Source: Clostridia bacterium
GTDB lineage: Bacteria; Bacillota; Clostridia; Oscillospirales; CAG-272
Length of the DNA stretch: 64,000 nucleotides
Reading direction: 5' to 3'
NCBI GenBank assembly: GCA_017407835.1
Contig: JAFQVV010000026.1
Span: forward strand, 186,001 to 250,000
Of the stretch, positions 21,080-33,972 are shown piece after piece. The position numbers and the translations under genes are program-made. The stretch's first letter is position 1; every line of letters starts with the position of its first letter. The notes beneath the pieces are model-generated. The model saw nothing but the letters and a program-made list of their open reading frames with translations, did no database searches and was not told where the DNA came from.

Positions 21080-21127
21080 ATATTTATTGGATTTATTTTG
21101 TCGGAACTTTCATGTGAGGTGATGCTC

Positions 21128-22528
21128 GTGCTTTTTGCAGCGCCGTCTTTTTTGTTTTTGTTTTTGCCGCTGACGTTGGCTATCTATGCCCTGGTTCCGC
21201 CGAAATTCAGGCGGTATGCTTTGCTGGCTTTTAATTTGATCTTTTATATTTTCGTCTGCCGCAACGCACCGATCAGCATTTTGCTGGCATTTCTCACGGC
21301 TGCTTTTACCTACAGTGCGGGATTTGCTGTTGCCGTTACCCATCAGCGAAAGACGGTCTTGCTGTCCGCGCTTGTGTTGGGCGTTGCTTTTTTGATCTAT
21401 CGTCTTTTCCATCACAGCTCGCTCTTGGCCGGCAGTCCGTATTATCCTCTGGGGGCATCTTTTTATTTGCTGTCGGCGCTGTCTTATTTGGTCGATATTT
21501 ATCGCAATGATGCACCGCACGCCAAAAATTTTGCCGATCTTCTGCTGTATATGTTCTTCTTTCCCACCATTATCGTTGGCCCAATCATCAAATATAAGGA
21601 TTTTGGTGTCCTGCTTGAGGGGGAGATGCTTTCGCTTGAGCGCTTCAGTGTCGGCGTTAAATGTTATATTTCCGGTTTTTTGAAGCGGCTGTCCGTTTCG
21701 GCTGTTTTGGGGTATGCACTTGAGCAGCTGCTTGCGGCCGCAGGTGATAGGTTTGGCATTTGGATTGCGTTGTTGGCCTTTGCACTGATGTGCGGATACC
21801 TGTTGTTTGCAATCGGCGGCTATTACGATATGGCATGCGGCCTGATGCTGATGTTTGGGATTGGGCCGCCCCGTTATCCTTCTGCCGAAAAAATTCGGAT
21901 TGTTTGTATCTGGACAAGCTTCCGGGCGTGGATGACCGATTATTTGGTCCATCCCATTCTTCGCAAACGGCAGATCCCCCGTGTACTTCGTTACGCACTT
22001 GCCGGTCTTGTTGTGTGCTGTTTCCCCCTGCTTTGGCTCAAAACACGGTGGTATTTGCTGCCGATTGGAGCAATCATCATCATTGGCGGGGGACTTTATT
22101 TGCTCATGCTTCGGCAAAATCTTCGTCATAATCCGCGGTTGAATCGTGTTGTTCGCATTTTGGGGCGTGTTGTACTATGTTTATTCATGATTCTGTTTAT
22201 CGCTCTTCTCCCCTTTGAGCGGGCAGGGGACATTGCCGAGTTTTGGCAGATGCTCCTGCAGGAAGGCTGGACACTGCCTACGCAAACTGTTTTGCTCGGA
22301 TTATCGGTTCTTAAATATCTGCCGATCGGTCTCATCGGTCTTGGCTGCCTGTTCTTTTTGCGTGAAGGTTGTACCGAAAAAGAGAAAAGAATCCCCATTG
22401 CCTTGGGCGGTCTGCTGCGCGGCTGTGCATTCCTTTTGGTGATGTGTTCATTTGCTTTTTCAATTTTGCATCTCATGCCGCAGTTCCCGGAGTGTGCTGT
22501 CAACGCTTTGCCGTATCTTGTGTTTTGA
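21128..22528 (+). CDS. MBOAT-family (AlgI-like) membrane protein lacking both conserved histidines
   Basis: About 466 residues, polytopic, clearly related to the intact MBOAT at 31272: MLFAAPSFLFLFLP aligns with MVFSSLVFLCIFLP, PLGASFYLLSALSYLVDIY with PIGISFYTFQALSYTLDIY, and FFFPTIIVGPIIKYKDF with LFPQLIAGPILRYRDL. But the block FWRRWHISLGTWFRDY is reduced to IWTSFRAWMTDY and the catalytic TGIWHGASWN is replaced by FPLLWLKTR. Both histidines are gone, so acyl transfer is unlikely. GTG 21128 is chosen by GAGGTG spacing and by alignment with the intact paralogue. The frame is otherwise undamaged. It is followed after 33 bases by its DHHW-like partner. Confidence 0.8.
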   Translation: MLFAAPSFLFLFLPLTLAIYALVPPKFRRYALLAFNLIFYIFVCRNAPISILLAFLTAAFTYSAGFAVAVTHQRKTVLLSALVLGVAFLIYRLFHHSSLLAGSPYYPLGASFYLLSALSYLVDIYRNDAPHAKNFADLLLYMFFFPTIIVGPIIKYKDFGVLLEGEMLSLERFSVGVKCYISGFLKRLSVSAVLGYALEQLLAAAGDRFGIWIALLAFALMCGYLLFAIGGYYDMACGLMLMFGIGPPRYPSAEKIRIVCIWTSFRAWMTDYLVHPILRKRQIPRVLRYALAGLVVCCFPLLWLKTRWYLLPIGAIIIIGGGLYLLMLRQNLRHNPRLNRVVRILGRVVLCLFMILFIALLPFERAGDIAEFWQMLLQEGWTLPTQTVLLGLSVLKYLPIGLIGLGCLFFLREGCTEKEKRIPIALGGLLRGCAFLLVMCSFAFSILHLMPQFPECAVNALPYLVF

Positions 22529-22561
22529 TTTTTGTCCATTCGGATGAGAAAGGAGTCGGTC

Positions 22562-24805
22562 TTGAAAAACTCTCGGACAGTTCAGTTGCTGATGACGGTC
22601 ATTTTCCTCGGAATCATCCTCAGCTGTACCGCTTATTTCGGTATTACGGCACTGATCGCATTGCCGAACAGTTACCTTGAAACACCGTACCATGAGGAAA
22701 ATGCTCTGCCGGATACATTGAATACTTTTGATCGAGGGGTGTATTTGGATGCACGCCAGCGACAGCTGATGATTTCTTTGGATTATCGGCTCTTTTCTCA
22801 GGTTTCTTCTTCTGAGGTAGTGGTAGGGAAAGAGGATTTTCTTTTCCCGCTCCGTGAAGACGATTACGATTATCTGGCAGATTATACAGGAGATGCGTTA
22901 TATGATGATGCAATGCTGGATTTGCTTGCCAAATCTATCGAAAAACGAAGTATTGCCTATGCCAATGCAGGTGCAGAATATCTTTTGGTTGTGATTCCAA
23001 ACAGCCAGACGATATACGGGGAATATTTGCCGTCAGCCGTCTCTTCTGCCGCAGGTGAAAATCGTCTGTCACAGCTGAGCGCATATCTCGCAGACCTTGA
23101 CACCGTCAATTTCCTTGATCTGACACAAGCTATGCAGGATGCAAAATCCGATGGTGTGCTTTTCAATAATACCGAAAATTCGATCAATGCACTGGGTGCA
23201 AATACCGTCTATCGTGCCGTCCTTGAACAGCTGCCCGATGATCTGCAAGGACGTTATTCTCCCATTGCGAGCGATTCAATTAACATTTTTACGCATTATA
23301 CCGGCGGGAAAGCATTGGCAAAACTGGCAGGTATTGAGGATCTTGTCCGCAACCGCACATTATCTTTGGTCAACGACACTGAGCTGAAGTACAGGGTGTT
23401 AGAGAAAATTGCGGGCATGGAAATTACATATATTAAAGCAGAGTATAAGGATGAAATTTCCAATCGTCCGGCACTGTTGTTGGAATTCAGCGATGAATGG
23501 GACAAAATCCAACTGATGCCCTATTTTTCCAACACCTTCGGCACGGTGGCATATAAAACATATCCGTCTTTCAGTTTATATGCCGTTGACTATCTCAAGC
23601 CTAATCTTGTCATCCAATTTGTCCACGAAAATGAGCTGGATTCTTTGCTCGATTCGGCAGTTCTCCTCTCCTATAACGACGGACTGAAAGAGGGCGACGA
23701 TCCCTTTGTCGCCATGGCACCGAGCGTACTTGGCATTGCGCAGAATGCTGCCGATCGAATTTGCATTGTCGGCAGCTGTGAGGCAGAATCGGTAATTTCC
23801 CTCGAAGGCGAAGGCATAATTTCCGCTCAAGTCAGCGCACGCAACGAACGGTTTGTCATCGAAGCTGTCTTTGAGACAGGAACGCAATCAACAGTTCGTC
23901 TGATCGCTTCGGTGGAAGGGAAGATCGAGAGCAGTGCTACCGAACTTGAACTTTCGCTTGGTGCCTTTGAAGGCGAGCAGAAAGTTATGGTAGGAAGCAA
24001 TTCCATGCTTTTCCATACCGGAGCGCTTACGTTGACCAATATCGGCGCCTATTCACAAACGCAGCTTCAGCGCATCCGTACGCGATACCTTAAAGAGGCG
24101 GAAAATTTTTCGACGGCAGTTGGAAAAAAAGTCCGCTCAGTTTATGTTTATATTCCCGATAAAACCAGCATTTATCGTGATGCGCTTGCTGCACAAAATA
24201 AGCTTCCCCTGCAAACGCGTCTCTCTCAACTCAGAGAAACGTTGGCTAACGCGGAGTATGTTACCGTGTTTGATCTTTCCCAAAGCCTGCCGTTTATCAG
24301 ACCGGCAGATCGGCTGTATCTGCAGACCGGGTCAACGCTTTCACCTTTTGGCGCGTTGTCAGTTTATCGATTGATTATGGATGAATTGGCCGAAGACGAT
24401 CCGGCGATGGTTCCTTTGACATATCAGGATTATGACTTTGTGCAGGAAACCGTTCCGGGCGGCGATTTGATTGAATTGCTTGGCCTTGATCCTGCGAGTA
24501 TTACCGAAAAAATCATTACGCAAACACCCAAAAAATCTTCCGTCAGCTGTACTGCTCTGGATGGAGAGACGGTGGTTGATGAAAGCGAAGCACTCTTGTA
24601 TATCAACACCGACGAGAGTCTGCCGGTTGCTATCGTGCGGCGTGATCTCTTCGGAACGCCGCTCCTGCCGTATTTGGCAGAACATTTTTCGCGTTTATAC
24701 GTATTGGAAGAAGGCAATTTTGAGCTTTCCGATGCCTTTATCCGCCAGGTAAATCCCGACTATATTTTTACTGTTTCCCATGAATATTATCTGCCCCTGA
24801 ATTGA
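22562..24805 (+). CDS. Tandem-duplicated DHHW/AlgX-like exported protein lacking catalytic residues
   Basis: About 747 residues: one N-terminal membrane anchor (about 8-30) and a large extracellular part built of two related halves. The halves align: YLLVVIPNSQTIY with SVYVYIPDKTSIY, NRLSQLSAYLADL with TRLSQLRETLANA, ALGANTVYRAVLEQL with PFGALSVYRLIMDEL. In the intact homologue (32671) this stretch reads RTDHHWTARG, and the SGNH serine is in VVRDSYGHAF. Here the first is NNTENS and QTGSTLS, and the second is EFSDEWDK and VRRDLFG, so neither half keeps DHHW or the serine. A beta-rich region lies between the halves. TTG 22562 follows AAAGGAG, as in the homologue. Confidence 0.75.
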   Translation: MKNSRTVQLLMTVIFLGIILSCTAYFGITALIALPNSYLETPYHEENALPDTLNTFDRGVYLDARQRQLMISLDYRLFSQVSSSEVVVGKEDFLFPLREDDYDYLADYTGDALYDDAMLDLLAKSIEKRSIAYANAGAEYLLVVIPNSQTIYGEYLPSAVSSAAGENRLSQLSAYLADLDTVNFLDLTQAMQDAKSDGVLFNNTENSINALGANTVYRAVLEQLPDDLQGRYSPIASDSINIFTHYTGGKALAKLAGIEDLVRNRTLSLVNDTELKYRVLEKIAGMEITYIKAEYKDEISNRPALLLEFSDEWDKIQLMPYFSNTFGTVAYKTYPSFSLYAVDYLKPNLVIQFVHENELDSLLDSAVLLSYNDGLKEGDDPFVAMAPSVLGIAQNAADRICIVGSCEAESVISLEGEGIISAQVSARNERFVIEAVFETGTQSTVRLIASVEGKIESSATELELSLGAFEGEQKVMVGSNSMLFHTGALTLTNIGAYSQTQLQRIRTRYLKEAENFSTAVGKKVRSVYVYIPDKTSIYRDALAAQNKLPLQTRLSQLRETLANAEYVTVFDLSQSLPFIRPADRLYLQTGSTLSPFGALSVYRLIMDELAEDDPAMVPLTYQDYDFVQETVPGGDLIELLGLDPASITEKIITQTPKKSSVSCTALDGETVVDESEALLYINTDESLPVAIVRRDLFGTPLLPYLAEHFSRLYVLEEGNFELSDAFIRQVNPDYIFTVSHEYYLPLN

Positions 24806-25371: not shown

Positions 25372-25917
25372 ATGAAAAAGTTTGTTTGCAAGGTTTGCGG
25401 TTATGTTCACGAGGGAGATGCTGCTCCCGAAAAGTGCCCCCAGTGCGGTGTTCCCGCCAAGATGTTCGATGAGCTCAACACTGCCGAGATGAGCTGGGCT
25501 GCCGAGCACGTTGTTGGCGTTGCCAAGGACGTTCCCGAGGATATCAAGGCTGATCTGCGCGCCAACTTCAACGGCGAGTGCTCCGAGGTTGGTATGTACC
25601 TGGCGATGTCCCGTGTTGCATTCCGTGAGGGTTATCCCGAGATCGGTTTGTACTGGGAGAAGGCAGCATTTGAAGAAGCAGAGCACGCAGCAAAGTTTGC
25701 TGAGCTGTTGGGTGAGGTTGTAACCGATTCCACCAAGAAGAACCTCGAGATGCGTGTTGAGGCTGAGAACGGTGCTACCGCAGGCAAGACCGATCTTGCA
25801 AAGCGCGCAAAGGCTCTTAATCTCGATGCAATCCATGATACTGTGCATGAGATGGCACGCGATGAAGCAAGACATGGCAAGGCATTTGAGGGACTTCTCA
25901 ACCGTTATTTTAAGTAA
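25372..25917 (+). CDS. Reverse rubrerythrin (NADH peroxidase component)
   Basis: 181 residues. An N-terminal rubredoxin domain ([14 protein letters not shown] and [12 protein letters not shown], four Fe-binding cysteines) precedes a ferritin-like di-iron domain ([47 protein letters not shown]). Rubredoxin at the N-terminus defines the reverse type, which reduces hydrogen peroxide and oxygen in clostridia. Codon use is strongly optimised, suggesting high expression. It is co-transcribed with the Rrf2 regulator and followed by a terminator. A fossil 3' end of a second copy lies at 28135-28194. Confidence 0.94.
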
Positions 25918-26090: not shown

Positions 26091-26144
26091 AAAGCAATCG
26101 AAGAACTCTTAAAGAAATAATACCCTATACTTTATCAAAATATC

Positions 26145-26161
26145 TATGAGGAAAAACTACT
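26145..26161 (+). repeat. Left copy of a direct repeat bounding the TetR module
   Basis: tatgaggaaaaactact here and tatgaggaaaaatctact at 28034-28051 flank the AT-rich TetR module in direct orientation. The left copy also pairs with the downstream ccctcatagat. Confidence 0.5.
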
Positions 26162-26209
26162 ATTCCCTCATAGATGTTTCAATTTTTTGTGAACGATACA
26201 AGCGACCAA

Positions 26210-26238
26210 TTGAAAAATGAAAAATTTTGTGATATACT
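26210..26238 (+). promoter_or_regulatory. Promoter of the TetR membrane-protein module
   Basis: TTGAAA (26210-26215), 17-base spacer, TATACT (26233-26238). The 130-base leader that follows holds an imperfect repeat around acagttcgataaaactg that could be a TetR operator. Confidence 0.6.
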
Positions 26239-26365
26239 GAATATATAGAAACAGTTCGATAAAACTGAATTTTCATAAATCAACACATATCAAATTTCGT
26301 GTTGTTCAGTTCCTCCTTTTTGAGTGGTAAAATATTACTGTAAAATCAAAAAGGAGGTTCTTTAT

Positions 26366-26716
26366 ATGAACACAGATAAAATTATCGCAGAATCAATCGC
26401 AAAGGACTATGCACCGAAAGAGAGTTCCAAACTCGTTGCTCTCAAAAAGTTGGACAACAAAGCGAAACTCCCTGCCACCATTTTTACCTATTCTTGTGGA
26501 ATTATCTCGGCACTTGTATTTGGTACAGGTATGTGCCTTGGTATGCAAGTTATCGGTAGTGGTATTGGCGGTATGATATCTGGAATTCTTATCGGCATTG
26601 TTGGTCTTATCGGTTGCAGCGTAAATTATCCCATCTACAAAAAGATGCTTGAAAAGGGCAAGAAGAAGTATGCCTATGAAATCGTGCAACTCGCAAAAGA
26701 AATCGTAGACAAATAA
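26366..26716 (+). CDS. Two-helix membrane protein of unknown function
   Basis: About 116 residues: a charged N-terminal 40 residues (MNTDKIIAESIAKDYAPKES), a hydrophobic hairpin rich in glycine (residues 42-92) and a basic helical tail (KKMLEKGKKKYAYEIVQLAK). Similar small proteins occur before TetR regulators in Clostridia and are sometimes labelled dihydropteridine reductase; nothing in the sequence supports that enzyme. Start ATG 26366 follows AAGGAGG by eight bases. The base composition is clearly AT-richer than the flanking housekeeping genes, as for the next two genes. Confidence 0.65.
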   Translation: MNTDKIIAESIAKDYAPKESSKLVALKKLDNKAKLPATIFTYSCGIISALVFGTGMCLGMQVIGSGIGGMISGILIGIVGLIGCSVNYPIYKKMLEKGKKKYAYEIVQLAKEIVDK

Positions 26717-26740
26717 AAATCAAATGCAAGGAGTGGTAAT

Positions 26741-27337
26741 ATGAATAAATCTGAAAGCAAATATTTTAATACTGCCACTAAAATGGACCTTGCATTGATT
26801 TCGCTGCTCAAAAAGAAATCGTTCGACTATATTACAGTTAGCGAGATTTGCGAAACGGCAGGGGTAAATCGTTCAACATTCTATCTTCATTATGAAACCG
26901 TTGGGGATTTGCTTGATGAAACTGCACGATATTTACTGAATAGTTTTTTATCGTATTTCTCAACTGATACAAAATCAATCGCACTTAACCTTAAAAACTG
27001 CGAACTTAACGATTTGATTTTCATTTGTGATAAGTACCTTACACCGTATTTAACTTATATCAAAGACAATAAAGAGATTTTTGCCACAGCACTCGCAAAC
27101 AATAAAACTTTGGGATTTGAAGATGTCTACCAACGAATGTTTGATAACATATTTAATCCGATTTTGGAGAGATTCCACTATCCATCATCTATCAGACAAT
27201 ATGTGATGATGTACTATCTAAATGGTATCAACGCCATAATTGTTGAATGGTTAAAAAATGGGTGTGCCATGTCAACCGATGAATTATCTAAAATAATCGC
27301 CATCTGTATTTACGGTAAAGATAATACAAATGGATAG
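26741..27337 (+). CDS. TetR/AcrR-family regulator
   Basis: 198 residues. The N-terminal HTH is typical (LISLLKKKSFDYITVSEICE; AGVNRSTFYLHYETVGDLLD, the recognition helix with STFYLHY). The C-terminal domain matches the TetR-C group 33-like dimerisation domains found in Clostridia. It lies between two membrane-protein genes and overlaps the next by eight bases, so it probably controls this three-gene module, perhaps in response to a membrane-active compound. AT-rich codons suggest acquisition. Confidence 0.85.
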   Translation: MNKSESKYFNTATKMDLALISLLKKKSFDYITVSEICETAGVNRSTFYLHYETVGDLLDETARYLLNSFLSYFSTDTKSIALNLKNCELNDLIFICDKYLTPYLTYIKDNKEIFATALANNKTLGFEDVYQRMFDNIFNPILERFHYPSSIRQYVMMYYLNGINAIIVEWLKNGCAMSTDELSKIIAICIYGKDNTNG

Positions 27338-27914
27338 GACACTAAAACTTGCACTTGTCAGTTTGTTATTCAATATGGTGTATAGTGCCTATCACATTAT
27401 TTTTGGCATAGCAACACAATCGTGGTGGCTTTTTACAGTCGGTATTCACTATGCAATATTGAGTATTGTTCGCTTTGGAGTTCTTCGGCATAAAGGCCAA
27501 AAGTGCTTTCTTGTTCGATTTACGGGAATAATGCTGATTATATTATCCGTTTCACTTGTGGGAACTGTAATTCTTGCTTTTGTAAAGGACAGAGGAACGA
27601 TTTTCCCTTTGATTGCTATGCTTGCGATTGCAACATATACTTTCACCAAAATCACACTTGCGACAATCAAATGGGTAAAGGCACGAAAAAGCACATCGGC
27701 AAAAACACTAACATTGCGAAACATATCTTTTGCTAATGCATTTGTTTCTATCTTTTCTTTGCAACGCTCAATGCTTGTTTCCTTTGAGGGCATGTCTGAA
27801 ATGGAAATTCGCATTATGAATGTTGCAACTGGTTCTGCCGTGTGTATTATCGTTTTTCTGCTTGGGTTAAACCTTATTTATTCTCAAAGGAATAAACCGC
27901 AAAAATACTCGTAA
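27330..27914 (+). CDS. Polytopic membrane protein of unknown function
   Basis: 194 residues with five or six hydrophobic segments (about 6-25, 29-48, 62-83, 88-108, 134-150, 168-186). No family recognised. It overlaps the TetR gene by eight bases and is therefore translationally coupled to it. A transporter or stress-tolerance role under TetR control is the usual reading of such pairs but is only inference. AT-rich like its neighbours. Confidence 0.65.
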   Translation: MDRTLKLALVSLLFNMVYSAYHIIFGIATQSWWLFTVGIHYAILSIVRFGVLRHKGQKCFLVRFTGIMLIILSVSLVGTVILAFVKDRGTIFPLIAMLAIATYTFTKITLATIKWVKARKSTSAKTLTLRNISFANAFVSIFSLQRSMLVSFEGMSEMEIRIMNVATGSAVCIIVFLLGLNLIYSQRNKPQKYS

Positions 27915-28134
27915 CCAATTCCAATTTGTCGGTCTGTTGAGGTTTTCCTCATAAACATTTCAAAAAACTTTTAATCGCACACAGTTACACAAAACGTTGT
28001 TTTTTCCACTCATAAAGATATTTTTGAATTTTTTATGAGGAAAAATCTACTGCATAGATTTTTATGCTTTTGTGTTAATTTTGTGCTAAACGGTTAAAAA
28101 CGCACGTTTTTGCCGTGTTTTTAAGGGTTTCTGT
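27915..28134. other. AT-rich intergenic region at the right edge of the TetR module
   Basis: No gene seen. It contains sequences related to the left flank of the module (tttcctcataaacatttcaaaaa, compare 26163-26189) and the right copy of the direct repeat (28034-28051). It ends exactly where the rubrerythrin fossil begins. Confidence 0.5.
28034..28051 (+). repeat. Right copy of the direct repeat bounding the TetR module
   Basis: tatgaggaaaaatctact, one base longer than the left copy at 26145-26161. Confidence 0.5.
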
Positions 28135-28194
28135 GACGAGGCGACACACGGCAAGGCATTCGCCGGTCTGCTGGAGAGATACTTCGGCAAATGA
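28135..28194 (+). pseudogene. Fossil 3' end of a second rubrerythrin gene
   Basis: The frame from 28135 reads DEATHGKAFAGLLERYFGK followed by TGA. It aligns with the C-terminus of the intact gene ([18 protein letters not shown], ending at 25917). Similarity stops abruptly upstream at 28134, where AT-rich sequence unrelated to rubrerythrin begins. Codons are GC-rich, as expected for a highly expressed gene. A terminator and GTGTG sequence like those after the intact gene follow. This indicates that a tandem rubrerythrin copy was destroyed by insertion or deletion. Confidence 0.85.
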
Positions 28195-28230
28195 TCGAAC
28201 CAATAAACGTGCAATAAATCAGTGAAATTT

Positions 28231-28268: not shown

Positions 28269-28392
28269 CGTTTGATAGGGTGTGTGAAATTACACATTGC
28301 CAGACCGTCCAAAATGCCCTACGGTGCTATTTATGGCTTTACAAACTACACCGCTTAAAGAACCACAGGGGCGATTATAGAGCAAAACAACA

Positions 28393-28446
28393 GGAGCAGA
28401 GGTCTAAACCTCTGCTCCTTAACTGTTTGGCATGTTGGAATTTGTC
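28393..28446 (-). repeat. Cassette repeat R1 (terminator half only)
   Basis: Perfect 11-bp hairpin (28393-28403 with 28408-28418, loop ctaa) followed by ccttaactgtttggcatgtt and ggaattt. It matches the distal half of R2-R4 and lies directly after the stop of the GNAT gene on the minus strand. The upstream half is absent, so this is one end of the array. Confidence 0.85.
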
Positions 28447-28890
28447 TTACAGTAACTTTATAAAAATTTGTACATCGTGGCCTTTTTTGTTTATATAAAT
28501 GTATCCATCTGTTTCAAATCCCAACTTGTTGTGCAATGCGATACTCGCAGTATTATTCAACCTAATTTGTTGTGACATTAATTTGTAGCCCTTATTTTTG
28601 GCTATTTCCATAGCAAGCATCATGGCTTCTCCGCCAATTCCTTGTTTACGATAACATTCAAAAATTTCAGGTCCACATGAAATAACGCTCGCAGAGTGCT
28701 GATATAACGATATCATTCCAACAATTTCGTTGCCTTTTACGATTGCAAACATTTCAAAATATTTACCAGAGAATTCCTTTTCTTCCCATTTTGCAAACAT
28801 AGTTTTGATTTCGTCTAATGACATATTTATATTCTGCTTTTGTTGAAATTCCAATGCATCATTGTCTGTGAAATTTCGTAATGAAATCAT
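28447..28890 (-). CDS. GNAT-family N-acetyltransferase (cassette 1)
   Basis: 147-residue GNAT protein. Motif A, which binds the acetyl-CoA pyrophosphate, is ECYRKQGIGGEAMMLAMEIA (Q/RxxGxG/A). Motif B follows as LNNTASIALHNKLGFETDGY. The start ISLRNFTDNDALEFQQ is typical of RimJ/RimL-like members, but the substrate cannot be told. Its ATG (28890) follows TAGGGTG. The promoter is supplied by repeat R2 (TTGAAA-17-TAAAAT, 28966-28938) and the terminator by R1, so it is a self-contained unit. Confidence 0.85.
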   Translation of the reverse strand: MISLRNFTDNDALEFQQKQNINMSLDEIKTMFAKWEEKEFSGKYFEMFAIVKGNEIVGMISLYQHSASVISCGPEIFECYRKQGIGGEAMMLAMEIAKNKGYKLMSQQIRLNNTASIALHNKLGFETDGYIYINKKGHDVQIFIKLL

Positions 28891-28906
28891 ATTTACACCC
28901 TACAAA

Positions 28907-29028
28907 TTCTTATTTTGCGAACTCTTTCCGTATCTCTATTTTACCATAAGCGTGCAAATTTTTCAAGTCAAAGCAGAGGTCTAAACCTCTGCTCCTTAAC
29001 TGTTCGGCATATCGGAATTTATTTTACT
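28907..29028 (-). repeat. Cassette repeat R2 with promoter and hairpin
   Basis: Full repeat of about 120 bp. On the minus strand it begins with the hairpin (28972-28980 with 28985-28993) that ends the zinc-ribbon gene, and continues with TTGAAA (28966-28961), 17 bases and TAAAAT (28943-28938), the promoter of the GNAT gene. Shared blocks with R3 are gcgtgcaaatttttcaag, agcagaggtctaaacctctg and gttcggcatatcgg. Confidence 0.88.
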
Positions 29029-29089
29029 TTATAAAAAATTCATTATCTGCTCTGCAGCGGTTTTTATCATCGAGTCACAGTATCTTTCA

Positions 29090-29491
29090 TTATACAAAGA
29101 ATGAAAACAAAACCGCAATTGCTGCATATAGATATTTCCACATGGATATTTTGACTTCTGCATAATTTCCCATGTTTTTATATTTCCATCGAATTGCATT
29201 AGGCAAATAACGTTGAAAGATAGACACAACAATAGAAATTAGCAAAAGTCCTGCCATCCCTACCAAAAGCGGGGATACTTGTGGCCTTACTGTTGCGACG
29301 CGAACGATACATACGATTAAACACAAAAACGGAAACCATGTAGTTTTGCAAAAATAAATCCAATAATACTTATTGAATATAATGTGCTCCTTTTCAGCAT
29401 CTACGGTGGGCTCATAAGTAAGTGTCGTATGGCAGATTGGGCATTCGTTTTCTGCGTTAACCGTCATTTTACAAGTCGGACATTGTTTCAT
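29090..29491 (-). CDS. Zinc-ribbon membrane protein (cassette 2), possibly frameshifted at its end
   Basis: About 133 residues: an N-terminal zinc ribbon (MKQCPTCKMTV and ECPICHTTL, four Cys) and hydrophobic segments (about 55-72, 78-98 and 118-132). Start ATG 29491 has AAGGA nine bases upstream. The open frame stops at 29090, inside a hydrophobic segment. In the other cassettes the stop lies within a few bases of the repeat. Here the -1/+1 frame continues as HSLYNERYCDSMIKTAAEQI to a stop at 29029, exactly at the repeat edge. A single-base indel near 29100 is therefore likely, giving a full protein of about 153 residues. Confidence 0.65.
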   Translation of the reverse strand: MKQCPTCKMTVNAENECPICHTTLTYEPTVDAEKEHIIFNKYYWIYFCKTTWFPFLCLIVCIVRVATVRPQVSPLLVGMAGLLLISIVVSIFQRYLPNAIRWKYKNMGNYAEVKISMWKYLYAAIAVLFSFFV

Positions 29492-29583
29492 TCCCATACT
29501 TCCTTCTGAATTGAATAGCCACAGGACTCAATATAAGTTATTTCTATTTTCTGGTCGCTCAGCAACCTCACAGTGTGTTTGGT

Positions 29584-29699
29584 CAAATTATTATTTTGCG
29601 AACTTTTTCCCATATTCCAATATACATAAGCGTGCAAATTTTTCAAGCCAAAGCAGAGGTCTAAACCTCTGCTCCTTAAACTGTTCGGCATATCGGGAT
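29584..29699 (-). repeat. Cassette repeat R3 with promoter and hairpin
   Basis: Hairpin arms 29652-29660 and 29665-29673; promoter TTGAAA (29646-29641), 16 bases, TATATT (29624-29619). About 85-90 percent alike to R2 by eye. It carries the terminator of the small membrane gene and the promoter of the zinc-ribbon gene. Confidence 0.87.
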
Positions 29700-29966
29700 T
29701 TACAGAAACCATACTTCCCAAGTTACGATGAATATGAATAGTGCCAAGCAAATACTCAGTATAGCCGAACCACGATGTTGCTTCCATTCTTGGATTGAGA
29801 GAACAAGCAGATAAACCCCAAGTAATGGGACAGCATAATCAATTGCTTGCGCGAATACTCCGCAAAGCTGAAGCGAAGCGAGAACAACGACAACAATAGA
29901 AAGGATAATGCGTATCATAAGCATTGTCTTGTCGCCTTTGGACATTTCTTTCCATTTGTTTTTCAT
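29700..29966 (-). CDS. Small membrane protein (cassette 3)
   Basis: About 88 residues: a basic amphipathic start (MKNKWKEMSKGDKTMLM) and three hydrophobic segments (about residues 17-36, 42-58 and 67-84) with a short basic loop (QEWKQHRG). No family recognised. ATG 29966 follows GGGAG by nine bases. Its stop is the first codon after repeat R3 and its promoter is in R4, the same layout as the other cassettes. Confidence 0.7.
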   Translation of the reverse strand: MKNKWKEMSKGDKTMLMIRIILSIVVVVLASLQLCGVFAQAIDYAVPLLGVYLLVLSIQEWKQHRGSAILSICLALFIFIVTWEVWFL

Positions 29967-29983
29967 ACCAAGCAACTCCCTCG

Positions 29984-30120
29984 TAAATTCTTATTATTCG
30001 AACACTTTTTTGTATTTCTATTATACTATAAGTATGCAAAGTATGCAAATTTTTCGAGCCAAAGCAGAGGTCTAAATCGCTGCTTTTTACTATTCAACTG
30101 TTTTATTTATTGGAATTTGT
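29984..30120 (-). repeat. Cassette repeat R4 (expanded, hairpin decayed)
   Basis: Shares aaattcttatt, gcaaatttttcgagcc, agcagaggtctaaa and ggaattt with R2 and R3. The hairpin is mutated (tcgctgct instead of cctctgct). A 10-base duplication (gtatgcaaa twice) restores a 17-base spacing between TTGCAT (30048-30043) and TATAAT (30025-30020). Confidence 0.8.
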
Positions 30121-30516
30121 TTAAATGCAAGGGAATGTAAAGCCGTATTCACGGAGCATATTGCGAAGGATTTCATTTTCTTTTTCGCTCAAATTGAAAT
30201 ACTTATCCTCTTCAACATGATATATTTTACCGCATGTATCGTAAGCAATGCAGTAAGTATTGCCGTCTATTATAAGTGCCACATTTTCACTAAAACCACA
30301 AGACGGAGAATCTGAAAACAAATTTTTTCCGTTAAATATTTTTCTAATGATTTCAGAATCTTCGTCAGACAATGATTTGGTTATATCAGTATCGCCATAC
30401 TGAAATACCGCAATTATTTCACTCTCTGCTACTTCAACCTGAGAGCAGGAAGAAAACGAGAAAATGATTAACACAACCAATAGCAAAGAATCAAGACGTG
30501 CAAAATGTTTTTTAAC
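30121..30516 (-). CDS. Lipoprotein of unknown function (cassette 4), start codon unclear
   Basis: Up to 131 residues. The frame VKKHFARLDSLLLVVLIIFS ending in FSSC is a textbook lipoprotein signal with a basic n-region and a lipobox. However the codon at its head (30516-30514) is GTT, not a start codon, although GAGGGT lies a few bases before it; the first standard start is TTG 30486, which would cut off the basic n-region. The mature part contains ESEIIAVFQYGDTDITKSL and KYFNLSEKENEILRNML. The start codon may have decayed. Promoter TTGCAA-17-TATAAT at 30594-30566. Confidence 0.6.
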   Translation of the reverse strand, partial: VKKHFARLDSLLLVVLIIFSFSSCSQVEVAESEIIAVFQYGDTDITKSLSDEDSEIIRKIFNGKNLFSDSPSCGFSENVALIIDGNTYCIAYDTCGKIYHVEEDKYFNLSEKENEILRNMLREYGFTFPCI

Positions 30517-30565
30517 GATTACCCTCTGTTGGAAATTGTTATTTATAGAGCTTTTTCATATCTGT

Positions 30566-30594
30566 ATTATACCACAAATATGCCGCTATTGCAA
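30566..30594 (-). promoter_or_regulatory. Promoter of cassette 4 (half repeat R5)
   Basis: TTGCAA (30594-30589), 17 bases, TATAAT (30571-30566). The surrounding attgttatttatagagc resembles the promoter half of R2-R4, but no hairpin half is present, so this is the other end of the array. Confidence 0.7.
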
Positions 30595-30684
30595 TCGTTT
30601 TGCGTAGTGATGCTTAAATGATACCATATTTTTGATAAAATTATCTGTATTTTTTCACAACACAACTTCAAGGCACATCGCCAA

Positions 30685-30732
30685 GACCAAAATAGAGGCA
30701 TCGGGATAAATCCCGATGCCTCTATTTTGGTC
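30685..30732. terminator. 22-bp perfect hairpin, duplicate of the tRNA-Pro terminator
   Basis: Arms 30685-30706 and 30711-30732 are perfect complements with loop taaa. It resembles the hairpin at 30927-30966 directly after tRNA-Pro. Both are followed on the minus strand by ggcgat(a/g)tgc(t/c)ttgaagt. Confidence 0.9.
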
Positions 30733-30775
30733 GGAGTGTTCATCACAGATATAAAATCCTTATGAACACTCACAC

Positions 30776-30806
30776 TGGTCTGAGTGACAAGACTTGAACT
30801 TGCGGC
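30776..30806 (-). repeat. Duplicated 3' fragment of tRNA-Pro
   Basis: 31 bases identical to the 3' end of tRNA-Pro (30966-30996), including T-arm, acceptor strand and CCA. The rest of the tRNA is absent. Such 3' fragments are typical scars of integration at tRNA genes, or of unequal recombination between tandem tRNA copies. Confidence 0.9.
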
Positions 30807-30884: not shown

Positions 30885-30926
30885 GGCGTGGGCTCAACCG
30901 CGACTTCAAAGCATATCGCCGAGATG

Positions 30927-30966
30927 AAAATAAAGGCATCGGGATAAATCCCAATGCCTTTATTTT
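30927..30966 (-). terminator. Terminator of tRNA-Pro
   Basis: Arms 30927-30944 and 30949-30966 (one mismatch), loop taaa, directly after the CCA end. On the minus strand the descending arm is A/T-rich. Confidence 0.85.
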
Positions 30967-31041
30967 GGTCTGAGTGACAAGACTTGAACTTGCGGCCTCT
31001 ACCACCCCAAGGTAGCGCGCTACCAACTGCGCCACACCCAG
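30966..31041 (-). tRNA. tRNA-Pro (anticodon GGG), CCA encoded
   Basis: 76 bases on the minus strand. Acceptor ctgggtg pairs with cactcag (one G-U), D-stem gcgc/gcgc, anticodon stem ctacc/ggtag with loop ttggggt giving anticodon GGG, five-base variable region, T-stem gcaag/cttgt with loop ttcaagt, discriminator A and an encoded CCA. It reads CCC and CCU. Confidence 0.95.
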
Positions 31042-31271: not shown

Positions 31272-32645
31272 GTGGTTTTTTCCAGCCTCGTTTTTTTGTG
31301 TATTTTTCTCCCTGTCTCGTTGCTGCTTTATTATCTTGCCCCAAATCTTAAGGCGAAGAACATCATCTTGACCTTGCTCTCAATTTTGTTTTATGCATGG
31401 GGAGAGCCGGTCTACTTTATTCTGATGATTGTATGCTCCTACGTCAATTATCTGGCAGCAAAGATGATCAGCAGCCGAACACAAAAAAGGAAACCGATTT
31501 TAATTGTATCCCTGATTATCAGTCTTGGTTTTTTGGTCATATTCAAATATGCCGGATTGATTGCAGAGACTGTAAATTTGCTGCCGTTTATCTCTATCCC
31601 TGTGCCGCAGATTTCTCTGCCAATCGGTATTTCTTTCTATACCTTCCAAGCCCTGTCCTATACGCTTGATATCTATTCGGGCAGGGAAGAGCCACAGAAG
31701 CGTTTTGGCGATTTTCTGCTTTATGTTTCTCTTTTTCCGCAGCTTATCGCAGGACCGATCCTGCGTTATCGCGATCTGGCATCGCAGCTGACCTACCGCG
31801 AGCATACTATGCAGCGCTTTTATCGCGGAACCGTCAGATTTTCTGTCGGCCTTTGCAAAAAAGTAATCATTGCAAACCACGCAGGAGAGCTTGCGGGGGA
31901 GATGCTGGCAGGTTCTTCCTCTTTCGGCATGTGGTACGGGATTGTCATGTTCGCTGTGCAGATTTATTTTGATTTTTCCGGCTATTCGGACATGGCGATC
32001 GGTCTTGGACGGATGTTTGGCTTTGAATATACCGAAAACTTCAATTATCCGTATATATCCCGCTCTGTTACCGAGTTTTGGCGGAGATGGCACATTTCGC
32101 TTGGCACTTGGTTCAGGGATTACATTTACATTCCCATGGGCGGCAAATACAAACATCAATTGCTCAACATCTTTACCGTCTGGGCGCTGACGGGGATATG
32201 GCACGGCGCCAGCTGGAACTTCCTTTTCTGGGGCTTGTACTACGGCATTCTGCTTGCCATTGAAAAAACCTTTTTGTATAAATTGCTTGAGCGTATGCCG
32301 AGCGTGATTTCTTGGCTTTATACGATGCTGACGGTGCTCATCGGCTGGACGCTCTTCTATTTCACCGATATCACCCAGTGCTTTGATGCGCTCAAAGTGA
32401 TGTTCTCCTTTGCGGGCGGTATAGGCTCCGATGTTCTCGTTTCTCTGAAAACCAATGTACTCTTCCTCGGCATAGCGGCAGTGGCCTCAACCCCGTTTGT
32501 AAGTCGAGCTGTAAAAAAATATCTACCCGATGATTCGGTCATCGCCGTGACACTGGGGACCTGTTTTAATTTGTTTGCATGGATTATCTGTACAGTTCTT
32601 CTTGTCAATGCGTCCTATAATCCTTTTCTGTATTTCCGTTTTTGA
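31272..32645 (+). CDS. MBOAT-family O-acyltransferase (AlgI/PatA-like), intact
   Basis: 457-residue polytopic membrane acyltransferase that moves acyl groups across the membrane for transfer to exported glycans. The two family histidines are present: EFWRRWHISLGTWFRDY (about residue 278) and LTGIWHGASWNFLFWGLYYG (about residue 313). Other landmarks are PIGISFYTFQALSYTLDIY and YFDFSGYSDMAIGLGRMFG. It starts with GTG after GGAGGA. It is followed after 25 bases by a DHHW-type extracellular partner, forming a complete surface O-acetylation module. The glycan target is unknown. Confidence 0.93.
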   Translation: MVFSSLVFLCIFLPVSLLLYYLAPNLKAKNIILTLLSILFYAWGEPVYFILMIVCSYVNYLAAKMISSRTQKRKPILIVSLIISLGFLVIFKYAGLIAETVNLLPFISIPVPQISLPIGISFYTFQALSYTLDIYSGREEPQKRFGDFLLYVSLFPQLIAGPILRYRDLASQLTYREHTMQRFYRGTVRFSVGLCKKVIIANHAGELAGEMLAGSSSFGMWYGIVMFAVQIYFDFSGYSDMAIGLGRMFGFEYTENFNYPYISRSVTEFWRRWHISLGTWFRDYIYIPMGGKYKHQLLNIFTVWALTGIWHGASWNFLFWGLYYGILLAIEKTFLYKLLERMPSVISWLYTMLTVLIGWTLFYFTDITQCFDALKVMFSFAGGIGSDVLVSLKTNVLFLGIAAVASTPFVSRAVKKYLPDDSVIAVTLGTCFNLFAWIICTVLLVNASYNPFLYFRF

Positions 32646-32670
32646 TGTTGCGAAAGGAGGGAAATGAAAT

Positions 32671-33972
32671 TTGAAAAAGCGATATTTAATTTCTGTCGTT
32701 TGTTTTCTTGCCCCGCTTGTCTTTATGTTTTTTGTGGGAATATTGGATGAAGATCGGAGTTTTTCATCGTCGGAAAACCGAGAATTGTCCACAAGTCCGA
32801 CACTTTCGCTCTCAAGCTATCTGGATGCCTCATTTATGCAGGACTTTGAATCCTACTATACCGATCAATTCCCCTTCCGGGAAACCTTCATGTCGCTCTC
32901 AAAGCGCTACAACAGCATCATGTACCCCAATTTTCTGCTCTCGGATGATGATGTAATCAGTCTGCCGCCGACCAATATCAATCCCACAACAACACAAGAG
33001 GGAGGCGACTCGCCAGCCCCCTCCACCAATTCTCCCACAACCGATCAGGTTGATACCGAAAGTTTGCAGGGAAGTATGATCTACGGCGGGCGTATCATGG
33101 AGATCTTCAACGTCTCTGACAGTACAGCGCAGCGCTATGCGAATGTCATCAACGCACTGTATGCCGAGTGCGGAGAACCCGATACCTATGTACTGATTCC
33201 GCCGCCGGCATACACCCTCTATGCACCAGAGAATCATATCAATGAAAAAACCGATTTTGATCAGGCTATGTTGGTAGTTTCTGCTGCACTTGACGGTCCG
33301 CAGCTCATCGATCTGCGCGAGACATTTGATGACCGCAAAGACGAAGCCCTATATTTCCGCACCGACCACCACTGGACAGCGAGGGGCGCATACTATGCCT
33401 GCAACGCATTTCTGCAGGCAGCAGAGAATATGACGCTTCCCGCACTGGATACCTACCAAAGCGGAACTCGCGATGGCTTCCTCGGCTCGCTGTACCGTGC
33501 CATTATGGCCAACCAGGCCAGTGCTTTGATCGAGAAAAATCCCGATACGCTGGAATATTTCTATCCCTTTGCCGATGCCGAGGTGATCACCTATTCAAGC
33601 GCGGCGATGATTGATCCGCTGGAGCGTGAGGTGCTCTATCCCGATTATAATGCAGATACTAACCTTTACTGCGTTTATATGGGCGGAGATATTGCGCTGG
33701 GGAAAATCACGACACAGACCAAGAACGGGAAGAGTATCTTGGTAGTGCGCGATTCTTACGGGCATGCTTTTGTTCCGTTCCTGATCGATGCATACGAGAC
33801 AATCTATATTGTCGAACCGCGATATTTTAATCGAGATACCAACCCAATGGAACTCGGCAGCTTTTTCACCGAGCATGATGTGGATACCCTTTTGTTCTTG
33901 GGTTATCCGAATATGTCGGTGGGCGGATATTGGGATACCATTTCCTATTATCTTGAACAGCTTTTGCCATAA
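32671..33972 (+). CDS. DHHW/AlgX-like extracellular O-acetyl transfer protein
   Basis: 433 residues: one N-terminal membrane anchor (YLISVVCFLAPLVFMFFVGI), a Thr/Pro/Ser spacer (about 105-125) and an SGNH-like domain. The motif FRTDHHWTARG (about residue 230) gives the catalytic Asp/His and the family name; VVRDSYGHAF (about 353) supplies the serine. The N-terminal SENRELSTSP is typical of DHHW proteins. It should take acyl groups from the MBOAT partner upstream and place them on a surface polymer. It starts with TTG after GAAAGGAGGG. A 19-bp terminator follows. Confidence 0.9.
   Translation: MKKRYLISVVCFLAPLVFMFFVGILDEDRSFSSSENRELSTSPTLSLSSYLDASFMQDFESYYTDQFPFRETFMSLSKRYNSIMYPNFLLSDDDVISLPPTNINPTTTQEGGDSPAPSTNSPTTDQVDTESLQGSMIYGGRIMEIFNVSDSTAQRYANVINALYAECGEPDTYVLIPPPAYTLYAPENHINEKTDFDQAMLVVSAALDGPQLIDLRETFDDRKDEALYFRTDHHWTARGAYYACNAFLQAAENMTLPALDTYQSGTRDGFLGSLYRAIMANQASALIEKNPDTLEYFYPFADAEVITYSSAAMIDPLEREVLYPDYNADTNLYCVYMGGDIALGKITTQTKNGKSILVVRDSYGHAFVPFLIDAYETIYIVEPRYFNRDTNPMELGSFFTEHDVDTLLFLGYPNMSVGGYWDTISYYLEQLLP

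Follow-up and report, generated by a model that had tools for sequence, protein, structure and literature searches.

The stretch analysed here, called the window throughout, comprises 64,000 nucleotides of a Clostridia bacterium assembly (GCA_017407835.1, contig JAFQVV010000026.1, positions 186,001 to 250,000 of the forward strand). At positions 28393-30594 it carries an array of four small, unrelated genes, all on the minus strand, which are separated by three spacers of 119-136 bp and bordered by half-spacers at both ends. Read along the minus strand, the array consists of the promoter half-spacer R5, a lipoprotein-like gene, the spacer R4, a gene for a small membrane protein, R3, a zinc-ribbon gene, R2, a GNAT gene, and R1 with its tail. 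In the following, W denotes the window and G000 its own genome, and all other G numbers are comparison genomes.

Anatomy of the array

Each spacer contains, in this order, the repeat IRR, a terminator hairpin, a sigma-70-like promoter, and the repeat IRL. IRL (ACAGTTCGATAAAACTGAATTTG) precedes the ribosome site, and IRR (CAAATTCCAACTTGTCGAACAGTT) is located at the stop codon; the two are imperfect inverted repeats of each other, approximately 24 bp long, with one pair around each gene, and the promoter and terminator hairpin are positioned outside this pair. The consensus in the spacers is CAAATTCCrATaTGCCGAACAGTT for IRR, GGAGCAGAGG TTTAGA CCTCTGCTyy for the hairpin, and AGAGTTCGCAAAATAAGAATTTG for IRL. 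Because a position matrix built for IRL and IRR has 0 matches in the remaining 56 kb, the repeats of the array are not due to chance.

The array begins with R5 (30532-30594), a half-spacer with a promoter (TTGCAA-17-TATAAT, seen in the sequence and by a blind scan) and an IRL-like sequence, in which the hairpin is absent. The lipoprotein-like gene (30121-30486, 121 aa) is an open reading frame (ORF) with no Pfam match, and its IRR (30096-30119, matrix score 26.2) belongs to R4 (29984-30119), a weaker copy of the spacer with 81-82% identity to R2 and R3, which continues with an imperfect hairpin (30063-30086), a promoter (30020-30049), and the IRL of the next cassette (29984-30006, score 19.3). 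That cassette encodes a DUF3953-like small membrane protein of 91 aa (29700-29975; PF13129, 22.7 bits against a cut-off of 22), the stop codon of which is overlapped by its IRR (29679-29702, score 31.1). This IRR opens R3 (29584-29702), with a hairpin at 29650-29677, a promoter at 29619-29646, and the IRL of the zinc-ribbon cassette at 29584-29606, which scored 18.2 before its inclusion in the matrix.

The zinc-ribbon membrane protein (29090-29497, 135 aa) is followed by its IRR (28998-29021, score 33.0) in R2 (28903-29021), which, like R3, is 119 bp long; it further contains a hairpin (28970-28997), a promoter (TTGAAA-17-TAAAAT with TG before the -10 element, 28938-28966), and the IRL of the GNAT cassette (28903-28925, score 24.8). 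The GNAT acetyltransferase (28447-28890, 147 aa; PF00583, E 1.5e-11), whose homologue in G003 is likewise bounded by IRR and IRL, has its IRR 2 bp past the stop codon (28421-28444, score 33.5). This IRR belongs to R1, in which a hairpin with a 12-bp stem and a 4-nt loop (28392-28419) is present and the promoter is absent. Beyond the hairpin lies a tail of about 45 bp (TTTTGCTCTATAAT..GCCCCTGTGG), conserved in other genomes and recognized by sequence comparison as the 3' tail of type-1 units (28353-28392). IRR, hairpin, and tail of R1 together span ~95 bp that are 82-87% identical in G001, G186, G248, G265, and contig C1 of the window's own genome.

An earlier note on this DNA had described four unrelated genes in one orientation with three repeats between them, each holding a terminator for one gene and a promoter for the next, and this description holds: R2 and R3 are 92% identical, R4 is the weaker third copy, and the blind scan recovers the R1 hairpin as well as three spacer promoters (TTGAAA-17-TAAAAT, TTGAAA-16-TATATT, and TTTGCA-18-TATAAT). 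Its statement that half-repeats mark both ends is correct for R5, whereas R1 exceeds a half copy by the conserved tail. Similarly, a stop codon within a few bases of the repeat is found for three genes (at most 3 bp) but not for the zinc-ribbon gene, which ends 68 bp before its IRR and at which the stop-distance script scored another frame.

Two 74-bp hairpin repeats with a GCATCGGGATAAATCCCGATGC core (30665-30738 and 30903-30976), 88% identical, adjoin the array start. In the same region, the 3' end of a tRNA-Pro gene is present as a 31-bp exact copy 190 bp from the tRNA gene (30776-30806 and 30966-30996), a duplication that resembles the result of integration at a tRNA; contigs C25 and C39 from this genome carry copies of the region that are 91-92% identical.

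Recurrence and turnover of cassettes among genomes

With up to three mismatches allowed, IRL occurs in 31 of 395 family genomes and in 16 of 71 genera (family and genus being relative labels in these counts), around many unrelated genes, and a reversed control pattern gave at most one match. The IRR-hairpin-tail segment of R1 was detected in 12 of 295 family genomes (E ≤ 0.001), and IRR, hairpin, and tail stand behind different genes in several genera at 77-87% DNA identity. When the genomes of 84,980 species were scanned for exact matches, ten stretches were returned, all from metagenome-assembled genomes (MAGs) titled Oscillospiraceae or Clostridia, as are the named carriers, of which at least two come from animal gut by title. 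No exact match to IRL, to either hairpin, or to the arm repeat of the type-2 tail described below was present in viral contigs, the array DNA had no match among plasmids, and searches of an open-access literature library yielded no description of such arrays.

The cargo is unrelated between units and includes GNAT, OmdA, chloramphenicol acetyltransferase (CAT), methyltransferase, NMN transporter, SASA esterase, helix-turn-helix (HTH) plus membrane protein, abhydrolase, and MazG genes; PADLOC matched 0 of 10 proteins as defence genes. Its placement is tight, since at 24 of 41 sites across all loci the first base of IRR lies no more than 10 bp from an ORF stop, compared with 6.5% of random positions, and the distance from IRL to the start codon has a median of ~18 nt. 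Spacer interiors are 98-99% identical within G185 and 90% identical between R2 and R3 of W, and differ from those of most other genomes (55-95%); unequal lengths inflate some of these between-genome values, whereas the equal-length within-genome comparisons are firm. In G185, CAT (by Pfam) and OmdA cassettes lie at two contig ends (L035 and L036) with spacers 96-99% identical, and the two loci are probably one array.

At orthologous sites, the content varies between close relatives. Three states are seen at csoR: a GNAT cassette in G003, an IRL-like repeat followed by a transporter of 389 aa (recognized by eye as MFS-like) in G001, and an empty site in G000. Between pcrA and ROK, G001 has a lipoprotein gene with hairpin and tail, G003 a different gene of 228 aa with IRL, and G000 nothing. 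The flanks of G001 and G003 are 90-92% identical at both sites, with 79% on the far side of pcrA-ROK. At holB-eno, G000 alone has a unit of ~1 kb with an HTH-membrane protein cargo where G001 and G003 have 79-85 bp; such whole units, with promoter, gene, hairpin, and tail, insert as a block. The boundaries of these inserts come from alignments of flanks that are 75-92% identical, which gives them a resolution coarser than a single base. Some units form part of a longer element bordered by the outer repeats CTTTTGTGCTGAT...ATCAGCACAAAAG.

Comparison of individual genes narrows the piece that is common to different genomes. The zinc-ribbon genes of W, G185, and G296 have ~85% DNA identity and different spacers; between W and G296, the gene, its 3' untranslated region (UTR), and the inner half of IRR are in common before the sequences diverge into distinct spacer types. 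For the GNAT gene of W and G003, homology extends from within IRR to within IRL, and for the OmdA gene of G018 and G185, it reaches the inner half of IRR, again with different spacers. Since homology ends at IRL and IRR while the promoter/terminator spacers differ, the exchanged piece in the compared cases would be IRL-gene-IRR, that is, the gene with the inner halves of the repeats, as judged from these alignments. The earlier note had expected exchange of promoter-gene-hairpin units; this applies to the block insertion at holB-eno but not to the compared genes, which share the narrower piece only.

Horizontal transfer is indicated by cargo identity across genera in excess of that of the neighbouring rubrerythrin gene in three comparisons, namely W-G185 (84.8% versus 71.4%), W-G296 (84.6% versus 76.4%), and G018-G185 (78.8% versus 69.5%), while the GNAT gene of W and G003 displays no excess (79% versus 77%).

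The gene comparisons also bear on the possibility, which we regard as quite improbable, that the unit is promoter-gene-hairpin, with its hairpin acting as the attachment site for a serine recombinase that other elements provide. A cassette hairpin of G046 is the exact location of a mobilisable 10.6-kb element (L044, G046:C31, 463-11131) that encodes a MobV relaxase, DNA methyltransferases, and a large serine recombinase; 34-bp perfect direct repeats span the hairpin at both ends of the element, and array junctions also fall directly past the hairpin. However, this is a single case, the G046 recombinase has an in-frame stop codon, no relative of it occurs in the other loci examined, and where a gene is compared across genomes, the hairpin is not carried along with it. 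Relatives of this recombinase were absent from viral contigs, with one distant match among plasmids. The G046 element suggests that integration into the hairpin is possible; it does not show that the G046 enzyme moves cassettes.

A second cassette at the rubrerythrin gene

Outside the coordinates of the array and facing it, a second cassette is present on the plus strand at 26251-27938, with three genes and the same parts: a promoter, IRL, the genes, and IRR directly past the stop codon. A 5' block hairpin (CTATGAGG..CCTCATAG, 26142-26175; sequence and blind scan) lies upstream, followed by the promoter (26210-26238; blind scan) and IRL (26251-26273; one mismatch to the consensus). The cargo (26324-27914) comprises a 130-aa membrane protein, a TetR regulator (26741-27337), and a 194-aa membrane protein (27330-27914); it has 82% DNA identity in G213 and G265, and the homology between W and G265 begins at IRL. 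Its IRR (27915-27938, matrix score 30.4) has a type-2 outer half, CGGTCTGTT, and leads into a type-2 tail (27939-28135, plus strand) of tandem TTTTGTG(C/T)TAATTTTGTGCTAA that ends in GTGAC, is 89% identical in G018 and G047, and has related counterparts in G265 and G296.

The tail abuts a shortened second copy of the 3' end of rubrerythrin (28136-28196, plus strand; tblastn, amino acids 162-180, 84% identity), the full rubrerythrin gene being located at 25372-25917. In G018, G047, and G296, the type-2 tail meets the same rubrerythrin codons; in G018, a second rubredoxin copy lies past this junction and another cassette then begins, and in G265, the DNA past the terminal GTGAC of the tail is unrelated, and a rubrerythrin fragment lies ahead of the unit. 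To judge from their sequences, these junctions look like the scar left by a unit that inserted site-specifically at the 3' end of rubrerythrin. No integrase came to light beside the type-2 unit at this site, and when the arm repeats of the type-2 tail were sought beside an integrase in 385 genomes, only the four tails themselves were recovered.

The region beside rubrerythrin also varies in content: G000 has the four-gene array and the TetR unit, G004 has one membrane protein, and G001, G002, and G003 have no cassette within 1.5 kb of the gene. Pairs of MBOAT acyltransferase and AlgX/DHHW genes apparently flank the rubrerythrin-cassette region on both sides (21098-24805 and 31272-33972), and the window proteins include two MBOAT and two AlgX members. 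A match of the rubrerythrin 3' end to MT835489.1, titled 'Bacteriophage sp.', was rejected as a lead, as that record contains the whole rubrerythrin gene amid apparently bacterial genes and is likely a mislabelled bacterial contig.

Mode of exchange and relation to known systems

That the cassettes are mobile is well supported by the variable orthologous sites, the presence or absence of whole units, and the homology that ends at the gene boundaries. On the best reading, they are MIC-like or integron-like, MIC standing for mobile insertion cassettes, and are moved by a putative enzyme or by recombination in conserved flanks. We propose, with a confidence that we would call evenly balanced, that the array belongs to a pool of mobile single-gene cassettes that extends across the family and whose members are swapped at IRL and IRR, most likely by a trans-acting enzyme. 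A cassette would consist of a ribosome site, one ORF (rarely a few), and a stop codon, bounded by IRL in the 5' UTR and IRR at the stop, and would have a stock promoter on one side and a stock terminator hairpin on the other, so that an inserted ORF would be expressed and terminated at once; arrays would be head-to-tail rows of such promoter/terminator slots. Genes would be exchanged by recombination at, or immediately beside, IRL and IRR, most likely through a putative site-specific recombinase or transposase supplied in trans, possibly by way of a circular intermediate. At a second level, a whole slot (promoter, gene, hairpin, and tail) would be inserted at new chromosomal sites. Of the three features to be explained, a trans-acting enzyme on IRL and IRR may account for the tight placement of ORFs and their replacement in place, and the longer elements with outer repeats may account for whole-unit insertion.

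Several observations weigh against this proposal. The co-occurring recombinase that the earlier note had foreseen was not found: none is linked to the system, and none occurs among the 25 most frequent of the 75 Pfam families matched by 46 window proteins. A simple two-site exchange predicts an empty platform (AACWGTTCGAACWGTT) and a circle junction (CAAATTY..TTTATCGATAAA..RAATTTG), but in 36 genomes these products were missing or no commoner than by chance, and co-variation of IRL and IRR is absent both across the gene (shuffle fraction 0.26) and across the spacer (0.20). No target-site duplication is visible by eye at the junctions examined, where the empty sites are too diverged for single-base resolution, and the insert of G001 at csoR has an IRL and no clear IRR. 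Most of the genomes are MAGs of moderate completeness, and several contigs end at or near the repeats, so that the assembly may be responsible for absences and for some of the junctions. Finally, IRL-like ends also border dispersed, probably non-coding repeats in G256, G282, G287, and G119.

Two candidate signatures were tried and rejected. For an attB x attP exchange centred on TCGA inside IRL and IRR, the predicted products were not found above chance in 36 genomes, and base-pairing co-evolution of IRL with IRR gave no signal across the gene or the spacer. As a separate observation, repeats ending in an IRL-like ACAGTTCGATAAACCCRAATTTG are dispersed at L102-L109 (G256), L110-L112 (G287), and L113-L115 (G282), some of them in tandem and near contig ends, and are probably a family resembling miniature inverted-repeat transposable elements (MITEs) that shares its ends with the cassettes.

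The dispersed repeats bordered by IRL-like ends are also a point in favour of reversing the roles, such that the mobile thing is the spacer, a MITE-like sequence with outward ends CAAATTC.../...GAATTTG that carries terminator and promoter and was inserted between genes. The spacer interior of G185 resembles such repeats, and the distance from the zinc-ribbon stop codon to the repeat, 0 bp in G185 and 68 bp in W and G296, is as expected from independent insertions. We nevertheless consider this unlikely: sister species differ in the genes that they carry at fixed sites, which is impossible by spacer insertion alone; single genes are flanked by half-spacers without complete ones; promoter and terminator are always oriented with the gene in the arrays read; and no target duplication was seen by eye. 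Compared with MITEs, which likewise are short repeats with inverted ends and have related ends on dispersed repeats in the same family, the repeats described here differ in being tied to gene boundaries and gene replacement and in the fixed polarity of promoter and terminator.

The main rival to the proposal of a trans-acting enzyme, and one that we regard as rather less probable, is plain homologous recombination, in which no dedicated enzyme exists, cargo is swapped within the conserved flanks (~60-80 bp of promoter and IRL upstream and ~60 bp of IRR and hairpin downstream), and array growth results from unequal crossover of near-identical spacers. The conservation of flanks within a genome (98-99% in G185, 90% for R2 and R3 of W) is sufficient for it, the homogenisation of whole arrays fits, and no enzyme was found. 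It leaves unexplained, however, how new genes first gain IRL and IRR tight around the ORF and how a whole unit came to be inserted de novo at holB-eno, and the GNAT unit of G003 at csoR lacks a stock promoter or hairpin as a partner.

Among known systems, MICs are the nearest kind. In mic-qnrD, a gene lies between 24-bp imperfect inverted repeats with six mismatches, without a transposase (PMC3913671). MIC231 of Bacillus cereus, mic-qnrD, and mic-qnrS2 have in common a passenger gene between imperfect inverted repeats and no transposase inside, an arrangement that is found at many loci here; MIC231A1 is moved by the IS231A transposase acting in trans, and mobilisation in trans is supposed for the qnr cassettes. 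The present cassettes differ in that the promoter lies outside the repeats, head-to-tail arrays are formed, cargo is swapped in place, and target duplications are not visible by eye. No insertion sequence with matching ends was found, and no transposase was present between IRL/IRR-like ends in the loci read, whole genomes not having been scanned for paired ends.

Integrons are the textbook route by which bacteria stockpile exchangeable genes, and the earlier note had likened the array to one. The likeness is confined to the architecture: chromosomal integrons and clusters of attC sites lacking integron-integrases (CALINs) also form one-orientation arrays of unrelated single genes with near-identical intergenic sites within a genome, attC-like arm/loop/arm folding, and content that varies between relatives (arrays, intergenic sites, and attC folding as in PMC8618304). 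If the array were a diverged integron or CALIN, its spacers would be attC sites moved by an IntI-type tyrosine recombinase. The two ends of a spacer do pair: outer arms of 7 bp are followed by an internal loop of 4 nt and by inner arms that enclose a variable middle, and the single-strand DNA folds of W R2 and a G185 spacer beat those of shuffled sequences (z -2.1 to -3.4). However, the integron-integrase model TIGR02249 is above its cut-off in 0 of 11 carrier genomes, a result tempered by the fact that a CALIN may lack the IntI gene, and these genomes contain only general tyrosine recombinases, as do all control genomes. The outer arms of the spacers read, CAAATTC/GAATTTG, do not fit RYYYAAC/GTTRRRY, as compared by eye without an attC covariance model, and the window spacers contain a promoter, each slot having its own. 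Moreover, the spacer downstream of the Zn-ribbon, GNAT, and OmdA genes changes from genome to genome, so that the gene alone, and not the gene with its downstream site, is common to them. Because integrase, R-box consensus, and movement of gene plus downstream site all fail, the array is not classed as an integron, and we deem a diverged form very improbable.

In its fullest form, to which we lend only tentative credence, the proposal is that of a distinct Oscillospiraceae gene-capture system, neither integron nor insertion sequence, in which a putative enzyme inserts a ribosome site, an ORF, and a stop codon into promoter/terminator slots at IRL and IRR and thereby creates a cassette pool common to gut genera. 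The earlier note's expectations of turnover were borne out: the same repeat flanks different genes in 16 genera, the number and content of cassettes vary between close relatives, and single cassettes recur in different company; the four genes are not always found together, nor is the repeat unique to this locus. The carriers have an arrangement parallel to integrons, with a ready-made promoter and terminator for each gene and a cargo that includes acetyltransferases. The csoR, pcrA-ROK, holB-eno, and rubrerythrin loci are testable sites for watching cassette turnover. If the enzyme were found, the system would represent a route of gene acquisition in a major gut lineage and could provide a means of exchanging cassettes in organisms in which engineering is difficult.

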